NCBI GenBank assembly: GCA_031261045.1 | Contig: JAISKE010000103.1 | Coordinates: 1-5,491, forward strand | Direction: 5' to 3' | Source: Mycoplasmataceae bacterium | GTDB taxonomy: Bacteria > Bacillota_I > Bacilli_A > Mycoplasmatales > Mycoplasmoidaceae | DNA length: 5,491 nucleotides | Shown here: piece by piece, positions 1-5,491 of the stretch | Position numbering within the stretch: position 1 is the first letter of the stretch | Layout: every line of letters starts with the position of its first letter | Program-made: the position numbers and the translations under genes | The notes under the pieces: model-generated | What the model was told of the DNA's origin: nothing | Seen by the model: the letters and a program-made list of their open reading frames with translations, nothing else | Database searches by the model: none

Positions 1-503
1 GTAACATTACCGCCAGTAACGATGGTGTTAATTGTTTTATTAACAGTGTGCTCAGTATTAACCACAATTACGGGAGTAATGGTGTCATAACCAGCTTTTT
101 TAATTTCCGCAAGATCAGCATTTAAAATAGGGCTACCAACTTTAACACTATCACCAGTTTTCGCTACAATTTGGAAACCAACTAATTTACTTGGTGTCGA
201 TGTTGCTTTAGCATCTTTAGAATTCATATTAACAGTATCGATACCGACGTGAACTAATATTTCAACTCCATTGCTTGTTTTAACAGAGTATGCATGTCCC
301 GTTTCCGCAATTAAAGTTATTTCACCTTCAATTGGAGAAACAAAATTACCGTTAGTTGGTTTAACTGCGAAACCACGACCAATCATGTCTTTGCTAAAAG
401 TTTCATCTTTAACTTCTGTCATAGAAACAATCTCACCATCAACTGGTGCGAAGATTTCTATACTTTTATTCTTACGTCCGAATAATTTACTAAAAAAACC
501 CAT
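1..503 (-). CDS. crr: PTS glucose-type EIIA component (IIA-Glc), C-terminus outside window
   Basis: Cytoplasmic phosphocarrier that takes phosphate from HPr and passes it to the IIB domain of a sugar permease. The visible 167 residues begin MGFFSKLFGRKNK, a short amphipathic lead like that of E. coli IIA-Glc, then run into the EIIA fold (IEIFAPVDGEIV near residues 15-26). Both active-site histidines are present: His70 in ETGHAYS and His85, the expected phosphorylated one, in EILVHVGIDTV. Near the window edge the sequence reads VNTEHTVNKT then VTGG, close to the usual C-terminus, so probably only 10-15 residues are missing. It is free-standing, not fused to IIBC. A ribosome site (AAGAGGT) lies 8 bases before the ATG. 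It is downstream of ptsH and an unknown membrane-protein gene, matching its role as the next phosphate acceptor after HPr. Function is confident from the motifs. Confidence 0.95.
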   Translation of the reverse strand, partial: MGFFSKLFGRKNKSIEIFAPVDGEIVSMTEVKDETFSKDMIGRGFAVKPTNGNFVSPIEGEITLIAETGHAYSVKTSNGVEILVHVGIDTVNMNSKDAKATSTPSKLVGFQIVAKTGDSVKVGSPILNADLAEIKKAGYDTITPVIVVNTEHTVNKTINTIVTGGNV

Positions 504-531
504 ATTTATATACCTCTTTTATATAGCTAAC

Positions 532-537
532 ATTATA
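532..537 (-). promoter_or_regulatory. -10 box of a probable crr promoter
   Basis: A perfect TATAAT on the minus strand lies 28 bases before the crr start, after the stop of the upstream membrane-protein gene (566). At a 17-bp spacing there is no good -35 box, which is common in low-GC Mollicutes. It suggests crr can be transcribed separately from ptsH. No terminator hairpin is visible in the 62-bp gap, so read-through from upstream is also possible. Confidence 0.4.
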
Positions 538-565
538 TGCTAATAATACTATTACAGTTTATTAA

Positions 566-877
566 TTAACTAGAATAATTGTTTCCAAAATTAGGTACGA
601 CACCACAATACATTAATATAAGGCAAATACCTCAAGCTAGGACTATAATCGTGGTCATTATTATAATTAGCATACGATTCTTATAGATTCATTTAGTGAA
701 CCAGTTCATTTGCTGAGCGCGATTATAATCTGGTTTGTTTTTCATGAAGCGATAAGTTAACCAACATAAAGCACAACCGGCAAGCATGCATATAATACCG
801 ATAATTAAATATACTATTGATCCAGTTCTAGGTGAATCAGAAGATAGAATTTCACTTAACTTTATACAATAGTTCAT
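566..877 (-). CDS. Small two-TM membrane protein of unknown function (UGA = Trp)
   Basis: I do not recognise this 103-residue protein. Read with UGA as Trp, it continues past a TGA at 689-691 (Trp63) and has a second UGA Trp at 82, ending at TAA. A hydrophilic start (MNYCIKLSEILSS) leads to TM1 near residues 19-43, a basic loop at 44-68 (Arg43, Lys46, Lys48, Arg53, Lys62, Lys66, Arg68), TM2 near 69-92, and a short polar tail ending NNYSS. By the positive-inside rule both ends would face outward. The start lies 16 bases after the ptsH stop with no ribosome site visible, and no other in-frame start exists between the upstream TAA and this ATG, so translation may be coupled to ptsH. It is not recognisably SecG. 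Read with a standard code, it would be wrongly cut to 62 residues and lose TM2. Its position between ptsH and crr hints at a PTS or envelope link, but that is only context. Confidence 0.7.
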
Positions 878-893
878 TATAAATATTTAGTAA

Positions 894-1157
894 TTAGATG
901 ATTTTATTATCAATCATTACTTTTTGAATGGCTGCTAAAGCTTCTGGAGCATCTAAACCATCAGTCTTAATTTCTACTTCATCATTGACTTTAACGCCTA
1001 ATGCCATTAAATTAATTAATGATTTGGCATTAGCGGCATTGCCCCTAACACTTATAGTGATGTTTGATTTAAATTTCCCAGCTTCACTAGTAATCTTACT
1101 AGCTGGTCGAGCGTGTAATCCTAGCGGATCAATAACTTTAACCTTGATTGATTTCAT
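894..1157 (-). CDS. ptsH: Phosphocarrier protein HPr
   Basis: Cytoplasmic HPr relays phosphate from Enzyme I to the EIIA proteins of the PTS. All 87 residues are present, the usual length. The phosphorylated histidine is at the canonical position 15 in GLHARPAS, with the conserved Arg17. Ser46 lies in NAKSLINLMALGV, the site used by HPr kinase/phosphorylase in Firmicutes and Mollicutes, so regulation by Ser46 phosphorylation is likely; the kinase gene is not in this window. A clear ribosome site (AGAAGGA, 1165-1171 on the minus strand) lies 7 bases before the ATG. The gene starts 43 bases after the cls stop with no terminator between, so it may be co-transcribed with cls. Enzyme I (ptsI) is not next to it here. 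Confidence 0.97.
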   Translation of the reverse strand: MKSIKVKVIDPLGLHARPASKITSEAGKFKSNITISVRGNAANAKSLINLMALGVKVNDEVEIKTDGLDAPEALAAIQKVMIDNKII

Positions 1158-1164
1158 TGTGTAT

Positions 1165-1171
1165 TCCTTCT
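1165..1171 (-). promoter_or_regulatory. ptsH ribosome binding site
   Basis: AGAAGGA on the minus strand, 7 bases before the ptsH ATG, is the strongest such site among the minus-strand PTS and cls genes. The neighbouring cls and membrane-protein genes have none visible. Confidence 0.7.
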
Positions 1172-1200
1172 ATTAACATATATCAAATATATCACAATTT

Positions 1201-2757
1201 TTAAAGAAGTGGTTTATATAAATTTAATAGCGCCAAACGGATCTTGGTGCGTAAATTATTATGTTTGGCGACATCTTCAGCGGTGACTATTTGTGAATTG
1301 CTAATGTCATCTTCAAAAATACTTAACATTTGTTGACAAACTTCCGGAGCATCAATCAAAATACCATTTTCAAAATTAATAATCATCGAACGGAAATCAA
1401 AGTTAGCGCTAGTAGCGTAAACTAGCTTGTTGTCAACGATAATATACTTAGAATGAATAAACCCATTATATTCGTACACTTTGATGCCTGTTTCAAATAA
1501 TTGGCGGTATTGACTGCGATTCATTGGTAAGATAAAGTCCTTGTTATCTCGCTTACCTGGTAGCAATACTTTTACTTCCACTCCGTTTTGTGCCGCAATC
1601 TTTAACGCGTTAATTGTTGATTCCGTCGGTAAAAAGTATGGGGAAACCAATTTAATAGATTTCTTAGCTTTCAAGAATAAACTAATCATCGTGTTACTTA
1701 CACCCTTTTCAGAATAGTTAGGCGAAGAAATACTTAATTGGGCTTTAACAGGGTCTTGATTATATGAATGATCAATGTGCAATCATTTATCTAGATTATT
1801 AGACAATTCATCTTTACTAGCTTTAGTAGTTGAATTGTTAGTAAATAGTACTCAATCATTAATAAATTCAATATTTAATGAATTAACAATTTCGCCTTTA
1901 ATAACCATATTCATATCACGTCAATAATATTTCTTAGGGTCCATCGCTAAATATTCATTGCCGACATTACTGCCGCCATAGATTGCTACGCTATTATCAA
2001 TAATTAAGGCTTTATGGTGTAAACGAAAATTGGTGACCCCTTTAAAGATGTTAAACCCTGGAAAATTAAATACGCCAACTTCAATACCCACCGCTTTTAA
2101 TTCGTCAATTTGAGATTTCTTAAATTTCATGAAAGAACCATATCAGTCATATAAGAACCTTACTTTAATGCCGGCTTTAGCTTTCTTAATTAATTCACAA
2201 AAAACTGTGCGCATAAAAAAACCGTCACGAATCAAATATGTTTCAAAGTGAATGAAAGATTTAGCCGAACGAATCGCTTTAATATATTCCTCATAAATTT
2301 CAGTATTAGATTGAAGAATATTAATGTCATTGTTCTGGTAAACTGGTTTAAAAGCTACGTAAAAAGAATATTTTAACAAATTAGATTCATCATCGTTCTT
2401 ATCAAAGAAGGTTTTCATATATGAATAGTCTTCAAACTTATTAAAAGTCTTTTGACTCTCTAACCTTTGTTTTCATTTAGTTCTTCGCAATGGATTAGTA
2501 CCAAATATTAAGAATAATAAACAACCAATCGTTCACAAGAAAGAAATGACGGCGCACCAACAAGCTTTAGTATTAATATGACGATCAGAACCAAGGATAT
2601 AGACTACGAAAGAGAAGTTAATTATTCAAACAACTACGAGTAATGGCAGCATTACTTCGATTCTACGTTCGTAGATAACTAATAAGACAATAACTACAAT
2701 AATCGCTGCAACTAATAAAGCAGCGATACCACAGATCATCATTTTTAATCTATTCAT
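1201..2757 (-). CDS. cls: Cardiolipin synthase (phospholipase D superfamily, two HKD motifs)
   Basis: Membrane enzyme that joins two phosphatidylglycerol molecules into cardiolipin and glycerol. With UGA read as Trp it is one intact 518-residue ORF, the usual Cls length; Trp44, 75, 95, 205, 279, 302 and 325 are all UGA, and a standard code would break it into at least four pieces. The N-terminus has three hydrophobic segments (about residues 7-29, 35-55 and 64-86). The first PLD motif is HHKALIID (His247, Lys249, Asp254) followed by GGSN; the second is HSKYIIVD (His435, Lys437, Asp442) followed by SANFDFRS. Both catalytic triads are complete. The start at 2757 is the first ATG; Met6 and Met7 are alternatives. 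No ribosome site precedes it, and a candidate -10 box ends only 10 bases before the ATG, so initiation may be nearly leaderless. ptsH follows after 43 bases. A different PLD-family phosphatidyltransferase cannot be excluded, but length, membrane anchor and motifs favour Cls. Confidence 0.93.
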
Positions 2758-2767
2758 AGATAATTAA

Positions 2768-2795
2768 ATATTAATAAAATAAAAACGCTTTACAA
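2768..2795 (-). promoter_or_regulatory. Candidate cls promoter
   Basis: On the minus strand TTGTAA (2795-2790) is followed after 16 bp by TAATAT (2773-2768). Each matches its consensus at four of six bases. Transcription would start about 3-4 bases before the cls ATG, which would explain why no ribosome site is seen. The region is AT-rich, so chance matches are easy. Confidence 0.3.
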
Positions 2796-2805
2796 ATTAA
2801 AGTGG

Positions 2806-2811
2806 TATAAA
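2806..2811 (+). promoter_or_regulatory. Extended -10 box (plus strand) in the decayed copy
   Basis: TGGTATAAA on the plus strand matches the extended -10 form (TG, one base, then the hexamer). Transcription from about 2818 would give a short RNA of roughly 50 bases ending at the hairpin at 2840-2865, parallel in layout to the candidate antisense RNA at 2949. No -35 box is seen at normal spacing. Confidence 0.3.
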
Positions 2812-2839
2812 CAAATGTAGAGTAGGGCTAGTAATAGTG

Positions 2840-2865
2840 AAAAGCAGGACGCAAATCCTGCTTTT
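2840..2865. terminator. Intrinsic terminator hairpin, copy 1 (bidirectional)
   Basis: A perfect 10-bp stem, AAAAGCAGGA with TCCTGCTTTT, closes a 6-base loop. On the plus strand it is followed by CTTTT, giving a T-rich tail; on the minus strand the stem itself ends in TTTT. It resembles the hairpin at 2976-3003 in stem core and loop. It does not follow any long gene, so it must serve short RNAs made inside the gap. Confidence 0.7.
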
Positions 2866-2936
2866 CTTTTCTCTGCCAGCTGTCTACCATTTAATTACGT
2901 TTTAAATAAAAAATTTAATATTCTCAAAATATAAGT

Positions 2937-2942
2937 TATAAA
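2937..2942 (+). promoter_or_regulatory. -10 box of candidate antisense RNA
   Basis: TATAAA on the plus strand lies 7-8 bases before the direct repeat at 2950-2964, so an RNA started here would begin almost exactly with the repeat. The hexamer 17 bp upstream (TTTAAT, 2914-2919) is a weak -35. The surrounding AT-richness lowers confidence. Confidence 0.35.
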
Positions 2943-2949
2943 TACATTG

Positions 2950-2964
2950 CTATGGTGCCATTGG
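2950..2964 (+). repeat. Direct repeat, left copy (antisense-RNA 5' end)
   Basis: CTATGGTGCCATTGG is 13 of 15 identical to the right copy at 3127-3141, in the same orientation. It lies on the opposite side of the terminator and toxin-like ORF from the right copy, so the convergent transcripts carry complementary recognition sequences. Confidence 0.7.
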
Positions 2965-2975
2965 TAAAACAATGA

Positions 2976-3003
2976 AAAAGACAGGACGTTAATCCTGTCT
3001 TTT
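2976..3003. terminator. Bidirectional intrinsic terminator, copy 2
   Basis: A perfect 11-bp stem, AAAAGACAGGA with TCCTGTCTTTT, closes a 6-base loop. The plus-strand tail is TTTTATTTT; the minus-strand stem ends in five T. It sits 22 bases after the stop of the hydrophobic 21-codon ORF on the minus strand and would end that mRNA, and on the plus strand it would end the candidate antisense RNA. Confidence 0.8.
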
Positions 3004-3006
3004 ATT

Positions 3007-3020
3007 TTCTCTACTAATGG
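3007..3020. repeat. Long-range inverted repeat, 3' arm
   Basis: TTCTCTACTAATGG (plus strand) is the exact reverse complement of the 14 bases at 3135-3148. In the minus-strand transcript this arm lies just after the peptide stop codon, and its partner lies inside the leader ORF, so the 5' and 3' parts of the mRNA can close on each other. Confidence 0.75.
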
Positions 3021-3025
3021 GTTCA

Positions 3026-3091
3026 CTATTTAATTACTACTAAAAGTAGAATCAATAGTAAACAAAGTACGACAAACACTTGCGTGTCCAT
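3026..3091 (-). CDS. 21-residue hydrophobic peptide, candidate type I toxin
   Basis: A 21-codon ORF from ATG to TAG. It starts MDTQ, then residues 5-20 (from VFVVLCLL to LLVVI) are all hydrophobic, and Lys21 ends it: a single membrane-spanning peptide with a charge at each end. A ribosome site GAGG lies 4 bases before the ATG, and an intrinsic terminator follows 22 bases after the stop, so it looks expressed. It is preceded by a 20-codon leader ORF whose stop is 9 bases away. Size and composition resemble small membrane toxins of type I systems (Ibs, Fst, TisB), but it lacks the Fst proline and WL pattern and I recognise no family. The start codon is in a hairpin loop, and the mRNA can close 5' to 3'; both suggest translational control. 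It could instead be a membrane micropeptide without toxicity, or a chance ORF; the ribosome site, terminator and RNA structure argue against chance. Confidence 0.6.
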   Translation of the reverse strand: MDTQVFVVLCLLLILLLVVIK

Positions 3092-3108
3092 CACACCTCA
3101 TTAAGTGT
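3076..3108 (-). promoter_or_regulatory. Hairpin enclosing the peptide's ribosome site and start codon
   Basis: In the minus-strand RNA, ACACUU then GUGUG on the 5' side pair with the contiguous CACGC then AAGUGU on the 3' side, giving 11 bp (one G-U) with a 6-base bulge AAUGAG on the 5' side. The loop is AUGGA, so the start codon is in the loop, and the ribosome-site GAGG is split between bulge and stem. Translation should be weak until ribosomes from the leader ORF, whose stop is inside this helix, open it. Confidence 0.55.
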
Positions 3109-3163
3109 CGGGTAATACCCCACACACTATGGTACCATTAGTAGAGAAGGACGTTTTGCTCAT
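3101..3163 (-). CDS. 20-residue leader ORF upstream of the hydrophobic peptide
   Basis: ATG to TAA, encoding a short polar peptide that begins MSKTSFSTNG and ends GVLPDT; no known family. It has the best ribosome site in the window: AGGAGG at 3170-3175 (minus strand), 6 bases before the ATG. The stop codon is 9 bases before the start of the hydrophobic peptide, in the same frame, and lies within the helix that hides that start, so its translation could open the downstream site. The leader also contains one arm of the 14-bp long-range inverted repeat and the right copy of the direct repeat targeted by the candidate antisense RNA. This is how mok relates to hok in the hok/sok system. The role is inferred from arrangement; the peptide itself may be irrelevant. 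Confidence 0.6.
   Translation of the reverse strand: MSKTSFSTNGTIVCGVLPDT
3105..3125 (-). repeat. Small hairpin in the leader ORF
   Basis: GTGT and GGGT pair with ACCC and ACAC around a 3-base loop, with one G-G mismatch, in the minus-strand RNA. It lies just before the start-codon hairpin, competes with it for the ACAC bases, and adds to the dense folding of this mRNA. Confidence 0.45.
3127..3141 (+). repeat. Direct repeat, right copy (within leader ORF)
   Basis: CTATGGTACCATTAG on the plus strand, 13 of 15 identical to 2950-2964. Its minus-strand transcript is the predicted target of the candidate antisense RNA. The core GGTACC is itself a palindrome. Confidence 0.7.
3135..3148. repeat. 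Long-range inverted repeat, 5' arm
   Basis: CCATTAGTAGAGAA (plus strand), exact partner of 3007-3020. It overlaps the direct repeat at 3127-3141, so pairing with the antisense RNA and folding of the mRNA onto its 3' end would be mutually exclusive over these bases. Confidence 0.75.
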
Positions 3164-3169
3164 AGAGAG

Positions 3170-3175
3170 CCTCCT
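3170..3175 (-). promoter_or_regulatory. Consensus ribosome binding site of the leader ORF
   Basis: AGGAGG, a perfect match to the anti-SD, 6 bases before the leader ATG. It is stronger than the sites of the ribosomal protein genes here. Confidence 0.7.
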
Positions 3176-3176
3176 A

Positions 3177-3205
3177 CCATCTATACTCGTTAAAATTATA
3201 GATGG
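3177..3205. promoter_or_regulatory. Operator-like 9-bp palindrome overlapping the small-peptide promoter
   Basis: CCATCTATA and TATAGATGG form a perfect inverted repeat with an 11-base spacer, so half-sites are centred 20 bp apart, on the same DNA face. It covers the TATAAT box at 3200-3195 (minus strand) and the expected transcription start, as a repressor operator would. In RNA it could instead form a hairpin just before the AGGAGG site if transcription begins farther upstream. Confidence 0.45.
3195..3200 (-). promoter_or_regulatory. -10 box of the leader / small-peptide mRNA
   Basis: A perfect TATAAT on the minus strand. Transcription from about 3188 would give an mRNA of about 210 bases ending at the terminator near 2975, with a 25-base 5' leader before the first ATG. 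At 17-bp spacing the -35 (GAAGCG) is poor. Confidence 0.45.
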
Positions 3206-3239
3206 CGAGTTAAGTATCGCTTCTATATCTGAAATTCAT

Positions 3240-3305
3240 TCCGGCGTTTGTCTTAAGTTTGTCTAATATTTTTCTAATTATTTTCCAGTTATTTTCTAAT
3301 TAAAT
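3240..3305 (+). repeat. Array of six 11-bp phased repeats
   Basis: Units start at 3240, 3251, 3262, 3273, 3284 and 3295, exactly 11 bp apart, all beginning TC. Units 3-6 approach TCTAATTATTT; units 1 and 2 end GTTTG. The period is close to one DNA turn, so the T-rich parts are in phase, as in curved DNA or a row of protein sites. It lies 20 bp upstream of the rpsL -35 box and 40 bp upstream of the small-peptide -10 box. No ORF explains it, since 11 is not a multiple of 3. Confidence 0.6.
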
Positions 3306-3324
3306 ATAGTGATTTATAAAATTT

Positions 3325-3353
3325 TTAACAAACTAATCATTTTATGATATTAT
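3325..3353 (+). promoter_or_regulatory. Promoter of the str operon (rpsL-rpsG-fusA)
   Basis: TTAACA (3325-3330), a 17-bp spacer, and TATTAT (3348-3353) preceded by TGA, which gives an extended -10. This is the best-formed promoter in the window. Transcription would start near 3359-3360, about 65 bases before the rpsL ATG. Confidence 0.65.
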
Positions 3354-3358
3354 TAATT

Positions 3359-3407
3359 ACTTTACAACAACTCGGTCGGGTGTATCCGATCGTATTGTCG
3401 TCAAAGT
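3359..3407 (+). promoter_or_regulatory. Structured 5' leader hairpin of the str operon mRNA
   Basis: Starting right at the predicted transcript end, ACUUU pairs with AAAGU, ACAA with UUGU, and CGGUCGG with CCGAUCG (one G-U) around a 6-base loop GUGUAU. This gives a stacked hairpin with two internal loops, ending 8 bases before the rpsL ribosome site. No T-run follows, so it is not a terminator. It could bind a ribosomal protein for feedback control or protect the mRNA 5' end; which one cannot be told. Confidence 0.5.
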
Positions 3408-3424
3408 AAATATATAGGAGAGAT

Positions 3425-3850
3425 ATGCCAACAATATCACAATTAATTAGACATAATCGTAAATCAAAAGCGAAAAAATCTAAATCACCTGCTCTAGGAA
3501 AGAACTTCAATTCCATTAAGAACATGGAAAAACAAGGACACAATCCTTTGAAGCGTGGAGTATGTACCCGTGTGGGGACCATGACACCAAAAAAACCAAA
3601 CTCGGCGTTACGTAAATATGCGAAGGTACGTTTAACTAATAAACAAGAAGTTTTAGCGTACATTCCCGGTGAAGGCCATAACTTGCAAGAACATAGTATC
3701 GTTCTAATCCGTGGTGGTCGTGTAAAAGACTTACCCGGTATGCGTTACCACATTGTCCGTGGTACTTTAGACACTCAAGGTGTTGCGAAAAGACAACAAC
3801 AAAGATCAGCTTACGGTGCCAAGAAGCCTAAAGCGAACACAGCAGCTTAA
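3425..3850 (+). CDS. rpsL: 30S ribosomal protein S12
   Basis: S12 sits at the decoding centre of the small subunit and takes part in codon-anticodon checking. The 141 residues carry the family signatures: [20 protein letters not shown] (residues 45-64), [11 protein letters not shown] (81-91) and [11 protein letters not shown] (95-105). It is about 15 residues longer than E. coli S12, mainly an insertion near residues 20-40 ([13 protein letters not shown]), as in other Gram-positives and Mollicutes. Lys56 and Lys101, which correspond to the E. coli sites where streptomycin-resistance changes arise, are both Lys, the wild-type state. The ribosome site AGGAGAG (3416-3422) is just before the ATG. 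It is first in the operon, 15 bases before rpsG. Identification is certain. Confidence 0.98.
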
Positions 3851-3851
3851 T

Positions 3852-3857
3852 AAGGAG
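3852..3857 (+). promoter_or_regulatory. rpsG ribosome binding site
   Basis: AAGGAG, 8 bases before the rpsG ATG, in the 15-base gap after the rpsL stop. The gap is short, so an S7 repressor site like that between rpsL and rpsG of E. coli is not present in the same form. Confidence 0.7.
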
Positions 3858-3865
3858 AAAGAACC

Positions 3866-4333
<468 letters not shown>

Positions 4334-4345
4334 GACGGATGATTT

Positions 4346-5491
4346 ATGGCTAGAATATTTCCGATGGAAAAATACCGTAATTTCGGTATCGTAGCGCACA
4401 TTGATGCTGGTAAAACTACCACTAGTGAGCGTGTCCTTTATCATACTGGTAAATCACACAAGATTGGTGAAGTACATGATGGTGCGGCCACCATGGACTG
4501 AATGGAACAAGAAAAAGAACGTGGGATTACCATTACTTCTGCCGCAACTTATGCGACTTGAAACGGTTATGAATTAAACTTAATCGATACACCCGGGCAC
4601 GTAGACTTCACTGTAGAAGTTAACCGTAGTTTAAGAGTATTAGACGGTGCAGTCGTGGTATTAGATGTACAAAATGGTGTAGAACCACAAACCGAAACTA
4701 ATTGACGACTTGCTGATAACTATAATGTTCCAAGGATCGTTTATTGTAACAAGATGGATAAAGTTGGTGCGGATTTTGAAATGTCTGTTAAATCTTTAAA
4801 AGAAAGATTAGCTGCTAATGGCGTAGCCATTCAATATCCGATTGGTGCGGAGAATGATTTCATTGGTACGATTGATTTAGTAGAAATGAACGCACGAATG
4901 TACGATGGTGAAAAAGAAGAGAATTATAAAATTGCTCCAATTCCCGCTGATCTATTAGGTAAAGCAAAACAATTCCGTCAAATCATGTTAGAAGAAATTG
5001 TAAATTTCGATGATGCTTGCATGGAAAAATTCTTGAACGGTGAGGAATTAACTGTTCCCGAAATTAAACTATGTATCCGTAAAGGCGTATTGACTGCAAA
5101 ATTTTTCCCCGTAATTTGTGGTACCTCATTTAAGAACAAAGGTGTTAAAGCGATGTTGGATGCGGTCATTGATTATTTACCAAGCCCGATTGATGTAGCT
5201 AAAGCTAAAGGATTCAATGATGCTGGTAAAGAAGTAGATATCATTCCAAGTGATGATGCTAAATTCTGTGGACTTGCATTTAAAGTTGCGACTGATCCAT
5301 TCATTGGACGTTTAACATTCTTACGTGTTTATTCTGGTGTATTAAAAGCTGGATCATATTTAATGAATACTAATAAAGATGCCAAAGAACGTGTTTCGCG
5401 TTTGGTGAAGATGCACGCAAACAATCGTGATGAGATTGATGAAATTCGTGCTGGTGATATTTGTGCTGTCGTTGGTTTAAAAGGAACCACT
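4346..5491 (+). CDS. fusA: Elongation factor G, N-terminal 382 residues (cut by window end)
   Basis: GTPase that drives translocation of tRNA and mRNA through the ribosome. The visible part, a bit over half of the usual 690 or so residues, has the complete G domain: P-loop AHIDAGKT (17-24), switch region RGITI (59-63), DTPGH (81-85), NKMD (135-138) and GTSFKNKGV for the G5 loop. The EF-G G' insertion follows NKMD, and domain II begins near 300 ([12 protein letters not shown]). Trp52, 72 and 120 are UGA. The start ATG at 4346 is preceded by AGGA overlapping the rpsG stop; the ATG at 4339 is out of frame. As third gene of the str operon it would normally be followed by tuf or another gene beyond the window. 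Confidence 0.97.

Follow-up and report, generated by a model that had tools for sequence, protein, structure and literature searches.

We analysed a 5,491-nucleotide (nt) stretch of DNA from a Mycoplasmataceae bacterium (GenBank assembly GCA_031261045.1, contig JAISKE010000103.1, positions 1 to 5,491, forward strand), hereafter called the window, and in particular a candidate type I toxin-antitoxin locus in the gap between its cardiolipin synthase (cls) and rpsL genes. The window reads in genetic code 4, in which TGA encodes tryptophan. Its minus strand carries the genes for a phosphotransferase system (PTS) EIIA protein (3-503), HPr and a phospholipase-D-type cardiolipin synthase, and its plus strand carries rpsL, rpsG and fusA. 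The rpsG product is 89% identical to that of L001, an uncultured Mycoplasmatota metagenome-assembled genome (MAG), and 88% identical to those of several Mycoplasmataceae MAGs.

Two predicted convergent RNA genes in the cls-rpsL gap

A preliminary description of this DNA had listed promoter-like, ribosome-binding, coding, repeat and terminator elements in the gap, and all of these sequence elements are present. On the minus strand, a predicted toxin-like mRNA of about 233-234 nt (RNA I, 2974-3207) extends from a 5′ hairpin (3176-3206), predicted in all six loci described below, through a terminator. Following the hairpin, AGGAGG (3175-3170) serves as the Shine-Dalgarno (SD) sequence of a leader open reading frame (ORF) of 20 codons, MSKTSFSTNGTIVCGVLPDT (3163-3101), which has 20-22 codons in the six loci. 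GAGG (3099-3096) then precedes a toxin-like ORF of 21 codons, MDTQVFVVLCLLLILLLVVIK (3091-3026, with an alternative GTG start at 3094), whose residues 5-20 are hydrophobic without exception. Both this GAGG and the start codon are covered by a predicted hairpin (3064-3099). In addition, a perfect 14-nt inverted repeat, absent from the preliminary description, joins the leader ORF to the segment preceding the terminator: the 5′ arm of this long-range stem (3148-3135, minus strand) lies within the leader ORF and is complementary at 14 of 14 positions to the 3′ arm (3020-3007, minus strand).

The plus strand carries TATAAA (2937-2942), the -10 hexamer that we used as the anchor in all six loci, followed by a predicted antisense, antitoxin-like RNA of about 60 nt (RNA II, 2949-3008). 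The two RNAs converge on a bidirectional terminator hairpin (2976-3003), the apical bases of which are UUAACG in RNA I and CGUUAA in RNA II. A direct repeat (15 of 17 positions, 88% identity) places one copy in RNA II (2950-2966) and the other in the leader ORF (3127-3143), where an antisense target at +21 to +38 of the leader (3126-3143, minus strand) can form an uninterrupted 18-bp duplex with RNA II.

The predicted folding energy of RNA I (2971-3190) is -85.9 kcal/mol, as compared to -49.6 ± 4.5 in 200 dinucleotide shuffles (z -8.1, 0/200), and RNA II also folds more stably than its shuffles (z -4.1, 0/200). Four terminator-like sites are found in 2740-3430, against 0.2 in shuffled sequences. 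The 15/17 repeat alone is not significant in a large scan, since unrelated loci reach the same score; the module in the window is significant because it is conserved in five homologous loci. The original observation is therefore real and exceeds chance.

Homologous modules in two further genomes

The five homologous modules are L081 in genome G002 (MAG Pq454_bin21, L002) and four dispersed copies, L102, L115, L138 and L148, in genome G010 (MAG Hm464_bin127, L010). Together with the window they make six intact loci in three host genomes. Names such as Pq454_bin21 and Hm464_bin127 presumably belong to a termite-gut series. A DNA search with the gap over 26 genomes gave one clear match, L081 (G002:C18; 76% identity, E 8.8e-29), in which leader ORF (MAINSFSTNGYPVSRRKPMT), toxin (MDTQVFIILIALLVLLLVIFS), terminator and antisense gene are all preserved. 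With L081 as the query, a search of 36 genomes led to L102 and L115 (E 3.9e-5 and 0.02), and L115 over 95 genomes led to L138; the identity to L115 is 93% for L102 and 87% for L138. A covariance model (R1), built from the window, L081, L102, L115 and L138 and run over the same 95 genomes, recovered L148 from outside its training set (E 8.5e-16, 67.4 bits), while the covariance match to RNA I of the window, itself a training sequence, reached 1.6e-48.

Further DNA searches, over overlapping sets of genomes, yielded no additional members, whether with L148 or the window over 95 genomes, L138 over 392 (the phylum) or L081 over 320 (the order), nor did a second covariance model (R2) over 30 genomes yield a new credible member, although it gave antisense-strand matches at the known loci. 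On reading, we judged as chance 10 of the 11 weak loci that the L081 query gave besides L081, L102 and L115 (the remaining one, L108, was unmatched in a rerun), the R1 matches in G067, G026, G029, G090 and G025, L196-L198 from the L148 search over 95 genomes, G507 and G508 from the L081 search over 320 genomes (a match to the terminator only), and G008/L208 from the R2 search. In BLASTN comparisons of the gap with plasmids and phages, 11 and 6 short matches were found, the best at E 0.04 and none over 80% of the query. Exact DNA patterns made from the toxin ORFs occurred at 5 + 41 loci in viral contigs, none of which (0/46) matches R2; on 74 loci (these 46 viral and 28 rpsG loci) R2 gave no match at E 1. 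In an architecture scan of 2.64 Mb, a figure that counts both strands and overlapping loci, repeats of at least 16/17 occurred only at L102, L138, L081 and L148, and the repeats of the window and L115 score 15, as unrelated loci do.

The modules occupy gaps between chromosomal genes. Their neighbours include rpsL in the window, a radical SAM protein adjacent to an anaerobic ribonucleotide reductase gene at L081, an amino-acid kinase at L102, GatB and a P-type ATPase at L148, and GAPDH at L115, where a YqaJ-like recombinase gene also lies about 0.7 kb after the toxin start; L138 is flanked by ORFs that belong to no Pfam family. Loss of the toxin frame in kept flanking DNA, which the preliminary description had named as the outcome that would speak against it, was seen in none of the five homologues; this comparison is weak, because no homologue sits at the same chromosomal site.

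The homologues also correct the position of the RNA I promoter. The preliminary description had assigned this role to TATAAT (3200-3195, minus strand), which probably lies inside the 5′ hairpin. By inspection, a -10-like hexamer (TATACT or TATAAT) is found 5-7 nt before the conserved hairpin in L102, L148, L115 and L081, and no clear one is found there in L138. The register shared with these four of the five homologues places the promoter 18 bp upstream, so that the RNA I -10 hexamer is probably GATACT (3218-3213, minus strand), with a start near 3206.

A conserved and covarying predicted RNA I fold

All six loci share a common layout and fold: a leader of 20-22 codons, a stop codon 7-11 nt ahead of the toxin start, and a hydrophobic toxin-like frame of 21-26 residues. 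The leader of L148 contains two in-frame TGA codons and is therefore open under code 4 only; in the window, neither the leader nor the toxin frame has a TGA. Each predicted RNA I has the 5′ hairpin, further hairpins within the leader, at the toxin start and, a small one, at the leader start, a long 5′-3′ stem that begins within the leader, and the terminator. The six folds have z values of -6.4 to -10.1 relative to simple base shuffles. The toxin start codon is predicted to be buried in five of the six loci, with an unpaired probability of 0.00-0.01 (0.01 in the window).

The consensus structure comprises 81 pairs, of which 34 are changed on both sides, as compared to 18.0 ± 2.8 in shuffled alignments (0/500) and 4-9 in slid controls; these figures overstate the independence of the changes, because the six sequences were aligned by fitting them to the model, and four of them come from one genome. 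Standard pairs make up 90.8% of the pair cells in this six-sequence alignment. In helix 1, the 5′ hairpin, seven of the ten pairs have changes on both sides. The 5′ arm of the long stem belongs to helices 4 and 5, and the inner part of this stem is the weakest helix, with 80.4% of its cells standard. The long stem UUCUCUACUAAUGG/CCAUUAGUAGAGAA of the window becomes UUCUCUACCAACGG/CCGUUGGUAGAGAA in L081 through two compensated pairs. Two MAFFT alignments (A4 and A5) were left out, since they misplace the 5′ arm.

Predicted locus-specific antisense pairing

In all six loci, the 18-19 nt at the 5′ end of RNA II form an unbroken predicted duplex with their own leader ORF. RNA II was taken from the seventh base after TATAAA, and the pairing begins there in five loci and slightly later in L148. 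The duplex always falls between +21 and +44 of the leader; in the window it covers nt 65-82 of RNA I, upstream of the toxin GAGG (from nt 109) and the toxin start (117). The -10 hexamer of RNA II sits 155-202 nt downstream of the toxin start. The window duplex has a predicted energy of -28.7 kcal/mol, as compared to a mean of -12.5 and a minimum of -24.6 for 2000 shuffled leaders. Moreover, the six cognate duplexes range from -28.6 to -32.2 kcal/mol, and the 30 non-cognate combinations from -7.4 to -22.0.

The recognition sequence varies among the copies, and both RNAs change in step. The recognition cores of L102, L115 and L138 are CTCCAT, TCTAAC and CTCAGA, respectively, matched by the RNA II repeat within each copy, and the core corresponds approximately to the 6-nt loop of a small predicted hairpin at the 5′ end of RNA II in these three loci. 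All seven interior differences between repeat copies preserve the pairing as G-U; only these were used, because a count over all 12 differences is partly circular, the pairs having been chosen by the duplex program. Homology also runs past both repeats, reaching the 5′ hairpin and the start of the leader in one direction and the RNA II -10 region in the other. Together, the flanking homology and the seven pairing-neutral differences point to selection on the repeats for RNA pairing rather than as DNA repeats.

A second contact is suggested by the terminators. By inspection, the six apical terminator bases of RNA I and RNA II are complementary in all six loci, although the outermost two of these bases are joined as U-G in some folds. 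This complementarity is trivial in the window and L081, where the two RNAs use one hairpin. All four G010 loci have separate terminators with different stems, and still their loops are complementary (RNA I/RNA II: UUUACG/CGUAAA in L102 and L115, UUGACG/CGUCAA in L138, and CGUCAA/UUGACG in L148); descent from a once-shared hairpin could explain part of this match. A YUNR motif is found by inspection in the RNA I loop of five loci (UUAA, UUGA, UUUA, UUUA and UUGA), and L148 has one in RNA II.

The predicted folds further indicate how the target is presented. Its 5′ half is sealed in the long stem in every RNA I, while its 3′ half begins in a junction, which is a long unpaired stretch in the window, L081 and L148 and comprises 2-5 nt in L102, L115 and L138; in these last three, the rest of the 3′ half lies within another hairpin.

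Proposed mechanism

We consider it very probable that the locus is a chromosomal type I toxin-antitoxin-like module, with RNAs arranged as in par and a leader ORF that resembles mok. The proposal of a type I system with features of both par/fst and hok/sok thereby gains support, as the five homologues keep the frames, the antisense gene, the pairing and the covarying structure. A short antisense RNA appears to silence a peptide gene by recognising a small frame upstream of it, and the membrane peptide is probably a toxin.

Resting state: RNA I would encode the 21-residue membrane peptide with its start codon buried in a hairpin, and would close the long 5′-3′ stem, the 5′ arm of which lies inside the upstream 20-codon ORF.

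Antisense binding: RNA II would make two contacts. In one, its terminator loop would kiss that of RNA I. In the other, its 5′ tail would first bind the partly unpaired junction that directly follows the 5′ arm, and would then displace the 3′ arm to form the 18-bp duplex within the leader ORF. We infer this order because it is the 3′ half of the target that the 5′ end of RNA II matches.

Repression and release: The duplex would halt the translation of the leader and hence that of the toxin, since the leader stop and the toxin start are only 7-11 nt apart. As the duplex precedes the toxin SD, repression should act through the leader. When RNA II is exhausted, ribosomes on the leader would open the RNA, and the toxin would be made.

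Several points weigh against this reading. The module is known from DNA sequence and predicted RNA: the ORFs, the fold, the covariation, and the locus-specific duplex and loop complementarity come from comparison or prediction, and transcription, strand displacement, leader coupling and toxicity are inferred from them. A consensus promoter scan found 5 promoters against 3.8 ± 2.1 in shuffles, which is not above chance, and listed none of the module hexamers TATAAT, TATAAA and GATACT. Among the genomes searched, credible homologues occur in only two, G002 and G010, both of them MAGs. In addition to the model-fitted alignment, one of the five covariation measures, that of further pair types, is not above the shuffles (60 vs 57.9; 155/500). 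Sequence conservation of the leader peptide is confined to the structured part, the L148 toxin start codon is less buried (unpaired probability 0.35), and pairing of the SD region (-14 to -5) is no more than partial at any of the six loci (mean unpaired probability 0.24-0.63; 0.36 in the window). Discrimination among L102, L115 and L138 is predicted to be partial, their six cross energies being -14.2 to -22.0 kcal/mol, and the two RNAs lack a shared terminator in the four G010 loci. Furthermore, the duplex at +21 to +44 lies beyond the usual initiation footprint, so that a block would act on elongation or through RNase III. Finally, part of the family may be mobile, as suggested by the YqaJ-like recombinase gene near L115.

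Relationship to known systems and alternative explanations

The strongest alternative is that the loci are, by descent, classical par/fst (Fst/Ldr) loci with toxins diverged past recognition, which would be compatible with the mechanism above. In PMC7472228, par of pAD1 is described as having an RNA I of about 230 nt, a short convergent RNA II, and a bidirectional terminator with a YUNR loop; its direct repeats provide the second contact and cover the toxin initiation site, the initiation region lies in a stem-loop, and a helix forms at the 5′ end. YUNR is not present in all par homologues, according to PMC7472228. The present modules resemble this system in the size of RNA I, the convergent short RNA II, the repeat contact (18-19 bp in 6/6 loci) and the 5′ helix, and the window and L081 also in the shared bidirectional terminator. 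These likenesses of size, convergence and terminator, together with the YUNR in five of six RNA I loops, the repeats and the hairpin over the toxin start, argue for common descent with par.

The toxins and the target argue against it. The six toxins, of 21-26 residues, lack the PXXXG motif, tryptophan and charged tail of Fst: Pro, Gly and Trp are absent from all of them, and no more than one of their final six residues is charged. As the preliminary description had noted for the window peptide, the Fst pattern is missing, and a search of Pfam and NCBIfam with four of the toxins (window, L081, L102 and L148) gave no Fst/Ldr match even with E values allowed up to 10. By their sequences, then, they lie outside the Fst family. 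The same databases gave no match of these four to any type I toxin family, Hok included; the L148 toxin matched Class III signal peptides below the cut-off (E 0.005; 17.2 bits, with 23.7 required) and had no match in the PDB. In Rfam, the gap had eight matches, all sub-threshold, and four homologous loci had none at E 0.1. Moreover, four of the six loci have separate terminators with complementary loops, and the antisense contact lies not over the toxin start but within the leader ORF that precedes it, and in the window stops 26 nt short of the toxin SD. We therefore regard descent from par/fst as unlikely, although of the alternatives it survives best.

The leader resembles that of hok/sok. 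In PMC4147584, the Sok target overlaps the mok leader ORF, hok requires translation of this leader, and the same is proposed for ldr/rdl with ldrX. In all six loci of the present family, the antisense target likewise lies inside the leader ORF. The hok mRNA has a long-range 5′-3′ pairing, to which that predicted in RNA I is comparable. The sok gene overlaps the 5′ region of the hok mRNA on the opposite strand, whereas the antisense gene in the present modules is convergent at the 3′ end, and its RNA has access to the leader through a duplicated 18-nt segment; the toxin is also unrelated to Hok and much shorter. In being very short and almost purely Ile/Leu/Val, the peptide resembles those of Escherichia coli ibs/sib. 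However, Sib RNA spans the whole ibs ORF, and to our knowledge ibs/sib has neither a leader ORF nor a repeat, both of which are present here.

An antisense-regulated small membrane protein without toxicity, one that regulates a membrane complex or forms part of it, would also be consistent with evidence that consists of DNA and predicted RNA, and tiny membrane proteins with regulatory roles are common. A buried start codon with a dedicated antisense RNA is typical of addiction modules, as are dispersed copies with private specificities in one genome; the peptides vary in length and composition, and a remnant without a toxin stands beside the intact unit in the window (see below), which is not what is seen for housekeeping subunits. 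We thus consider a non-toxic role improbable. A dispersed DNA repeat or miniature mobile element, with the direct repeats as target-site duplications and the ORFs accidental, would account for the four dispersed G010 copies and for repeats that are near-identical within a copy and different between copies, but it deserves hardly any credence, since homology extends outside both repeats and all seven interior differences keep the RNA pairing, which reject target-site duplication, and since the loci have retained the ORF lengths, the RNA helices and the complementary loops.

Returning to the type I module, we tentatively propose, as a quite possible but by no means secure extension, that it represents an undescribed Mycoplasmataceae type I family with two locks and two keys: the loop kiss, whose complementarity would have outlasted the separation of the two terminators, and the junction-seeded 18-nt displacement inside a leader ORF. 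The 5′ loop of RNA II would be the hypervariable key to sibling specificity, and the family would diversify by paired changes of key and lock and spread via gaps between housekeeping genes. The earlier suggestion that this may be a new family is supported by the comparisons above. It came with the remark that no described system of this form in Mollicutes was known to its author; among the papers listed in literature searches, and as judged by titles and abstract openings, we likewise found none. Type I systems are nevertheless stated to be known in Tenericutes in PMC12390103, the part of which drawn on here names no examples. Our claim is accordingly one of a new family and not of the first system in the phylum.

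A second, decayed unit and the surroundings of the modules

Beside the intact unit, a second unit, absent from the preliminary description, occupies 2806-2898 on both strands and was delineated by repeat families D1 and D5 and a covariance match to the terminator (2866-2839, minus strand). It comprises a TATAAA (2806-2811), an RNA II-like stretch (2818-2870), a terminator (2839-2866) with the loop UUUGCG on the RNA I strand, unlike that of the intact unit, and a remnant of an RNA I tail (2898-2839, minus strand). Its RNA II-like tail shows no specific pairing with the intact leader: the energy of -13.4 kcal/mol is at the level of shuffled leaders with the intact RNA II. From its sequence, 2806-2898 reads as an older unit that has decayed.

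In G010, a lone RNA II-like stretch with a terminator-like hairpin was noticed by eye at L139 (G010:C3, about 1830-1900), adjoining a class II tRNA synthetase gene and no toxin mRNA. The loop of its 5′ hairpin, GATC-TGGATA-GATC, differs from those of the other copies, and it is perhaps an orphan antitoxin. In G002, beside L081, L205 (G002:C18, 1182-3219) contains adjacent ORFs of 410 and 270 amino acids with no Pfam family above the cut-off and no PADLOC match. A conserved small membrane ORF, VSINKKPFTWIS..., occurs near weak model matches at G005:C3 11517 (L209) and G006:C5 25044 (L206), and is unrelated to the module family as far as seen; L206, L207 and L209 have no R2 match.

In the window itself, a 103-codon membrane ORF without a Pfam family above the cut-off (566-877, minus strand) lies between the EIIA and HPr genes. 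The cardiolipin synthase gene (1201-2757) is too diverged in sequence for a pattern search to reach relatives among the genome contigs, and neither Cls nor HPr has a match in the 80 rpsG loci of relatives, some of which include little upstream sequence. As no Cls relative was found in either set, the cls-rpsL neighbourhood may be peculiar to the lineage of the window. A short element resembling GATACACCGATTAGAGTTGTC recurs in the rpsL leaders of relatives: a TACAC...AGTTGT element lies upstream of rpsL in 18 of the 19 loci listed, a count that leaves out L016, L018 and L021, and the sequence of the remaining locus, L022, ends before the element. A related version, GTGTATCCGATCGTATTGTCG, is found upstream of rpsL in the window (3371-3403), possibly an autoregulatory site of the str operon.

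Implications

Type I systems are easily missed, because their toxins are too short for homology searches, and the present family widens the sequence space in which they can be found. The combination of a par-like anatomy with a mok-like leader suggests that gating by a leader extends beyond the enterobacterial systems. The presence of several units in bacteria with small genomes bears on the question of whether such modules are selfish or useful. The specificity of type I antitoxins is usually studied singly, locus by locus, while here four siblings are found in one genome, and the copies may form a natural set of mutually discriminating RNA switches. Since L102, L115 and L138 differ most clearly in a short, co-changing core, the evolution of discriminating RNA pairs becomes directly testable.

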